A stretch of DNA of 46,955 bases from Spirochaetales bacterium. Lineage in GTDB: Bacteria > Spirochaetota > Spirochaetia > SZUA-6 > JAFGRV01. The stretch spans positions 1 through 46,955 of the forward strand of contig JAFGRV010000427.1 of assembly GCA_016934975.1 (NCBI GenBank). Reading direction: 5' to 3'. Under the pieces are notes generated by a model. The model saw only the letters and a program-made list of their open reading frames with translations, had not been told where the DNA came from and did not search any database. Positions 12,382 to 33,493 of the stretch are shown here, piece by piece (the first letter of the stretch is position 1; each line of letters starts with the position of its first letter). Position numbers and translations under genes: made by a program.

Positions 12382-12483
12382 CCTGTCTTTTTTTGAAAAA
12401 AATACAATGAAATGAATGCAGCAGGAAACATTACATAGTTATTAATAGGGAGGATATGTCATCATATTAGAATTTTATTTGAG

Positions 12484-12538
12484 TAAAAGACCACCTGCAA
12501 AGTCCGTTCCGTGAACGGCGGTGGCTTCCTTTTGATAG
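12484..12538 (+). repeat. Structured 55-nt dispersed repeat, copy A
   Basis: TAAAAGACCACCTGCAAAGTCCGTTCCGTGAACGGCGGTGGCTTCCTTTTGATAG; about 45/55 identical to the minus strand of 33390..33444; nested stems CCACC/GGTGG and CCGTTC/GAACGG. Confidence 0.75.
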
Positions 12539-12566
12539 TGAATGACTTAAAAAAACGGAGGTACTA

Positions 12567-13109
12567 ATGATATTATCGAATTTTCATGATTTTCATTTTG
12601 TTATGGATAAGGGGATGAAGGATAAAATTAAAAGTCTGGATTTATTTTCTAAATCCGGGAGTTTATCCGGGAAAATAGTTGGAATATTAAATGTTCTCAC
12701 ACCTGTGATTGGAAAAGAACATAAATGGGGAAAACAAAGGTTGAGCAAGTATAAGGCTGTGTGTGATGATCCCGGGGAAATACGGGAGCATGTGCATGTT
12801 TATATACCGGATGAGATGTATCGAAAACTGAAGTTGCTGCATCAGGATTTGAATTTTTATAGTATTGCGCAGTTGGTTCGGGGGTTACTGAATTTTTTCT
12901 TTGGTTTGGTGGGTCTTTATAAAAATGAGGTTTTTCAGGAGTTAGAAAAAAATTTCACACGATGGGGTGCGGAGGATGAAGAAATTCGACTAACACCGCG
13001 TGAGTTTTTGCGACAATTGTGGAAAATAATTCGATTTCTACCAGGGAAAAACAGGCTTGTAACTGTCTATAGTGATCAATATGCACCTTTTTGGATATTC
13101 CGCGTATAA
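12567..13109 (+). CDS. Hypothetical protein, basic and helix-rich
   Basis: 180 aa ORF starting ATGATATTATCG after GGAGGTACTA (good RBS); REHVHVYIPDEMYRKLKLLHQDLNFYSIAQLVRGLLNFFF segment. Confidence 0.7.
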   Translation: MILSNFHDFHFVMDKGMKDKIKSLDLFSKSGSLSGKIVGILNVLTPVIGKEHKWGKQRLSKYKAVCDDPGEIREHVHVYIPDEMYRKLKLLHQDLNFYSIAQLVRGLLNFFFGLVGLYKNEVFQELEKNFTRWGAEDEEIRLTPREFLRQLWKIIRFLPGKNRLVTVYSDQYAPFWIFRV

Positions 13110-33306: not shown

Positions 33307-33389
33307 GTCTTCATCCCGGGATTATATCTATAAATTTTTATCAGCGCATAATCTCATAAGGTAATGCCGGTTTATGCCCCTGGCTTTTC

Positions 33390-33444
33390 CTGTCAAAAGA
33401 AAGCCGCCGCTGTTCTGTGAACGGACTTTGCAGGCAGGCTTTTA
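33390..33444 (-). repeat. Structured 55-nt dispersed repeat, copy B
   Basis: Minus strand TAAAAGCCTGCCTGCAAAGTCCGTTCACAGAACAGCGGCGGCTTTCTTTTGACAG; ungapped match to 12484..12538. Confidence 0.75.
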
Positions 33445-33493
33445 CTTTTATTTTATCATATTACACTTGATAAATTGTAGTTATTGATTTATT

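Follow-up and report, generated by a model that had tools for sequence, protein, structure and literature searches.

Two copies of a 55-nt repeat are present in the window, by which we mean the whole 46,955-nt stretch of DNA analysed here. The initial annotation had described them as a structured repeat, and re-alignment confirmed that both are real, with 10 differences over 55 ungapped positions. Both loci exist, but the ends first assigned to them were one base off, the true unit occupying positions 12483-12537 (copy A) and, on the minus strand, 33391-33445 (copy B). In copy A the CCACC/GGTGG stem (12491-12495 with 12520-12524) was found where it had been placed, and encloses an inner hairpin, CCGTTC-CGT-GAACGG. 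As had also been claimed, an A-T pair of copy A is replaced in copy B by G-C, a C-G pair by T-G and the loop CGT by ACA, and one inner pair is lost in copy B, the hairpin of which is otherwise kept. Below, the reader strand is the strand on which the repeat was first read (plus for copy A, minus for copy B), and the transposon strand, equivalent to the IS200/IS605 top strand, is the opposite one.

A start codon lies 29 nt downstream of copy A. The gene located there (12567-13109, plus strand) encodes a 180-amino-acid protein for which searches of Pfam and NCBIfam gave no hit, one paralogue showing a very weak ribbon-helix-helix match. Each of G000, G001 and G002 has 40 to 57 matches to the family of this protein, G003, G004 and G018 have none, and the regions upstream of its paralogues are partly conserved. 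A tie between the repeat and this 40-copy gene family was considered and rejected, as the presence of three of the listed copies near a repeat is unremarkable.

The source genome is a draft assembly of 6.8 Mb in 665 contigs, 87% complete. The initial annotation had proposed a covariance model as a check for many copies with the pairing kept, and such a model, to which copy A scored 94 bits and copy B 76.9 bits, found 144 matches in this genome (best E=2e-20; about 100 at E<=1e-4), many copies having conserved pairing. Exact matches to the 16-mer CCTGCAAAGTCCGTTC number 36, rising to 144 when up to 3 mismatches are allowed, compared to 41 for the reversed control. The repeat is thus abundant far beyond chance. 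Copy A is identical over 60 nt, its target included, to three other loci with equal model scores, and these four loci carry the same 60 nt at unrelated sites. The simplest architecture is a 40-nt unit, GTAAAAGACCACCTGCAAAGCAGGTGGCTTCCTTTTGATA; the 55-nt form is this unit with an added CCGTTC/GAACGG inner hairpin. Other architectures include tandem inner hairpins and forms of 130-190 nt with two outer hairpins, so that separate left and right hairpins are found in these long forms and a single hairpin in the short form of the window. At four loci (L005, L120, L129 and L163) the left half of the repeat is joined to its own reverse complement as a perfect palindrome, probably through template switching or as an artefact of assembly.

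The family extends beyond the source genome. Relatives were found in other Spirochaetota, in the same genus (42 matches) and also at the level of the family, order and class, and CSMAG_1232, another spirochaete metagenome-assembled genome, carries the repeat in many contigs. An exact 21-base pattern had no match in genome_contigs or viral_contigs, and the 45-nt core used as query retrieved relatives from genome_contigs. The copies are mainly intergenic: 6 of 63 fall inside an ORF of the joined-flank sequence, compared to 76% of random positions. In 57 of 68 copies an A immediately precedes the element on the reader strand.

The initial annotation had left two readings, an RNA element and a transposable hairpin, both resting on selection for structure. 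Among 54 distinct copies 90.9% of cells pair, compared to 45-60% when the partner is slid, and 7 pairs are changed on both sides, compared to 3.5 in shuffles. Conservation of the hairpin is therefore moderate, and the part of the claim that concerns pairing stands; the strongest covariation, however, was found outside the hairpin, between the guide bases and the adjoining host target described below. A structured RNA under selection for its fold, be it a 5' UTR regulator, a terminator or a small RNA, would agree with the retained hairpin, with the position of copy A upstream of a start codon and with the orientation of the right-hand genes, 39 of 54 of which are co-oriented with the reader strand. 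The left-hand genes, on the other hand, split 27 to 27 by orientation around these mainly intergenic copies, copy A shows no unusual folding stability as RNA (z -0.99), and no curated Rfam family matched the repeat. As DNA, the transposon strand folds somewhat more stably than usual (z -2.35), and its subterminal hairpin on one strand is as in an IS200/IS605 element. An integron attC site was dropped on motif grounds, there being no GTTRRRY boxes.

On the opposite strand the repeat has the layout TTYAC followed by the element, TATCAAAAG-GRAAG-CCACC...GGTGG-TCTTTTAC. A target T-T-Y-A-Y' lies at the left, a guide R-A-A-R' at the 5' foot of the hairpin and a right cleavage site TTTAC at the other end; on the reader strand GTAAA stands at 105 of 132 element starts, and the opposite end varies with the host. 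Copy A, whose boundaries were set by means of empty sites, reads 5'-TATCAAAAGGAAGCCACC...GGTGGTCTTTTAC-3' on its transposon (minus) strand. Its putative guide GAAG (12525-12528, minus) is placed directly 5' of the hairpin (12491-12524, minus, from sequence and folding), as in IS608 (PMC5934647), and was assigned from this position and from covariation with the target. The element-borne TTTAC (12483-12487, minus) would be its right-end cleavage site, judging by the GTAAA starts and by the right ends of IS200 elements, which carry this site too. The host target TTCAC (tetranucleotide TCAC; 12538-12542, minus) abuts its left end, as deduced from the empty-site comparison elsewhere in the genome and from the covariation table. 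In copy B, which has plus as transposon strand, the corresponding features are the target TTTCC (tetranucleotide TTCC; 33386-33390), the guide AAAG (33400-33403), the hairpin (33404-33437) and the right-end TTTAC (33441-33445), all on the plus strand. In both copies, then, the five bases that follow the 55-nt unit on the reader strand are the insertion target.

These boundaries can be read at an empty site. Cross-species comparison was unusable, the murG orthologue in G001 being only 64% identical in protein, and the empty sites were drawn from repeated sequence inside the source genome. Locus L346 has an uninterrupted junction between GGAATAATA (the same junction can be written with ATATGCGGAATAATA) and GTGAAACGCAGG; L004 carries the element at precisely this junction, with a nearly identical left flank and with GTGAA occurring once. 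Insertion was thus precise beside the target, with no base duplicated or lost. L265 carries the element at the same position in another unit of the host repeat. Among about 70 exact copies of the host motif GCGAA is nearly universal; GTGAA stands in the two occupied copies and in two unoccupied ones (p=0.002, on small numbers). At three further loci (L170, L065 and L287) a copy sits in the target of another copy and the target is shared. A second high-copy repeat, with the core GCGAAACGCAGGTTCGCGTGAAA and, upstream of it, a palindrome around TTCTTGTTTT, was seen at 128 places of the source genome, often at contig ends (for example in L346, L309 and L262). The short, non-coding, dispersed and palindromic character of our repeat would also suit a MITE moved by a DDE transposase through terminal inverted repeats, but the two ends of the repeat are not symmetric and at the empty site the target is not duplicated, making such an origin scarcely credible.

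Over 132 insertions we compared guide and target. Guide base 1 (G or A) is strongly associated with target position -3 (C or T), with counts of 69/10/5/37 (Fisher p=1e-16; p=9e-9 with genome and architecture as strata), and guide base 4 with target position -1, with counts of 101/8/6/11 (p=3e-7; stratified p=4e-6). Since the copies are related, these p-values overstate independence; collapsing identical elements changed the covariation little, and the crossed pairings, used as a control on the same 132 insertions, showed no association (p=0.17 and 1.0). The commonest guide/target pairs are GAAG/TCAC (55), AAAG/TTAC (25) and GAAA/TCAT (9). Both window copies obey the rule, copy A with GAAG and TTCAC, and copy B with AAAG and TTTCC, of which -3 and -1 match the guide and -2 deviates from A. 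Less easily reconciled with guide pairing, GAAG copies retain TTTAC at the right end, which leaves a G-T mismatch with the guide. In earlier IS608 work the fourth guide base reportedly pairs with target -1. In IS608 the guide is AAAG, the target TTAC and insertion occurs 3' of the target, and the first guide base, A+16, pairs with T-3 in the crystal structure (PMC5934647). The covariation between guide base 1 and target -3 independently recovers that base pair.

The association could in principle reflect shared descent of the element and its neighbouring bases rather than targeting, and the relatedness of the copies, by which the counts are not fully independent, speaks for this. Yet it persists within strata of genome and architecture, otherwise-alike elements switch both bases (L003 and L026 differ from L016 only at the guide, and the targets match the respective guides), and at the empty site the target belongs to the host. 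We regard shared descent as improbable. The reading as a structured RNA predicts neither the empty-site boundaries nor the guide-target covariation, and an RNA element is very improbable; of the two readings given by the initial annotation, the transposable hairpin is supported and the RNA element is not.

The decisive clue to the kind of element came from a planctomycete contig, L151, in which the hairpin directly follows the stop codon of an IS200-type transposase (Pfam Y1_Tnp 5e-41; NCBIfam IS200 3e-43). A search of 297 genomes of the class recovered further IS200 elements in G008 and G034, and the tnpA elements of all three end in (A)AAG-CCAC(C)(hairpin)-...TTTAC. By comparison of sequences, the right end of the repeat is closely similar to these IS200 right ends in related bacteria; their left ends differ from that of the repeat.

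The enzyme that might move the repeat is less plain. No IS200-type TnpA matching that of L151 was found in the draft source genome. It has two Y1 genes (L031 and L032), whose best scores, about 40 bits against a cut-off of 80, are to REP-associated transposases, with IS200 less near; the 1.5 kb or so around each gene is free of the repeat. CSMAG_1232, also a draft, gave no Y1 hit despite its many repeat copies. Because the genomes are drafts, the absence of enzyme genes is weak evidence. The repeat would be moved in trans by a domesticated Y1 protein, or else its autonomous partner has been lost or left unassembled. A RAYT-like Y1 clade of 156-174 amino acids (MRK.RKL...YHVIARANR.E; L031, L032, L175, L176, L178, L179, L181, L183, L186 and L188) is common to the family of the window and some further genomes, being present in the source genome, G001, G002, G003, G012 and G034; beside its genes no repeat copies were detected, except for one marginal hit at L176.

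It is conceivable, therefore, that the repeat is a REP-like element moved by a domesticated RAYT and not by an IS200 TnpA, a sub-variant of our preferred explanation with the same chemistry and another enzyme. The sole Y1 proteins found in G000 look REP-associated, the five other genomes that carry this clade (G001, G002, G003, G012 and G034) all carry the repeat, and a single hairpin in high copy number at mainly intergenic sites would be expected of a REP. Nevertheless, the repeat lacks the GTAG tag of classical REPs (PMC3733652, PMC8266576) and does not flank the RAYT genes, G004 and G007 have Y1 genes of like length and no repeat match, G029 and CSMAG_1232 have repeats without this Y1 clade, and the right end of the repeat matches IS200 right ends. 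We consider this variant unlikely, although much less so than the alternatives above.

We conclude, with a probability of roughly 0.93, that the repeat is a non-autonomous single-hairpin IS200/IS605-type element. We propose that the single-stranded DNA opposite to the reader strand folds into the hairpin, to which a Y1/HUH TnpA-like transposase supplied in trans would bind, so that transposition would proceed through a single strand. The guide R-A-A-R' would pair with the target T-Y-A-Y', base 1 to -3 and base 4 to -1, and the element, cut after its right TTTAC, would enter immediately 3' of a target that matches, leaving that target unduplicated. The 40-60 nt one-hairpin form, flanked by both cleavage sites, probably arose by fusion of the left and right hairpins. 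In IS608 a TnpA dimer binds two hairpins, and by that standard an element with only one is mechanistically incomplete, which counts against the proposal and raises the question of how an enzyme that is of the two-hairpin type in the model system cuts and inserts it. Somewhat short of even odds, we suggest that the 40-60 nt hairpin, having the two cleavage sites and a single shared guide, forms a complete unit that may be mobile in its own right, amplifying in trans and retargeted naturally by single-base guide changes. Laboratory editing of the guide has already retargeted IS608 (PMC5934647); many rounds of such retargeting seem to have taken place in nature and to have left their trace in this single repeat family.

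The repeat is, in our judgement, a new, very small variant of the IS200/IS605-derived non-autonomous elements, with a guide-directed targeting that is readable from natural copies. Like IS608 and other IS200/IS605 (Y1/HUH) elements, it has a subterminal hairpin, an AAAG-type guide at the 5' foot, a TTAC-type target at the left, insertion 3' of the target without duplication, and the pair between guide base 1 and target -3 seen in the crystal structure (PMC5934647); unlike them, it has no transposase gene, uses one hairpin for both ends in its short form and shows several natural guide/target combinations within one family. PATEs, the ends-only IS200/IS605 derivatives, likewise consist of palindromic ends and are thought to be moved in trans, but in Halanaerobium the PATE-like sequence is single-copy and about 271 nt long, whereas the repeat described here exceeds 100 copies and in its short form is 40-60 nt long with one hairpin (PMC7290912, PMC3119063). 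REPs and REPINs with their RAYTs are also short high-copy hairpins with a proposed guide-like tag (PMC3116915, PMC3733652, PMC8266576); in place of GTAG or CGTC, the repeat mostly has GAAG, AAAG or GAAA at the hairpin foot, and in it guide and target covary and the insertion rule is visible at an empty site. The free-standing IS605 stem loops of Borrelia plasmids are, similarly, IS605-type hairpins dispersed without transposase in a spirochaete, but those near lipoprotein genes have been read at the RNA level (PMC2775950), whereas the repeat shows insertion boundaries and a targeting rule. What appears to be new, compared with these systems, is the natural co-switching of guide and target, together with a single-hairpin form that seems to have been amplified.
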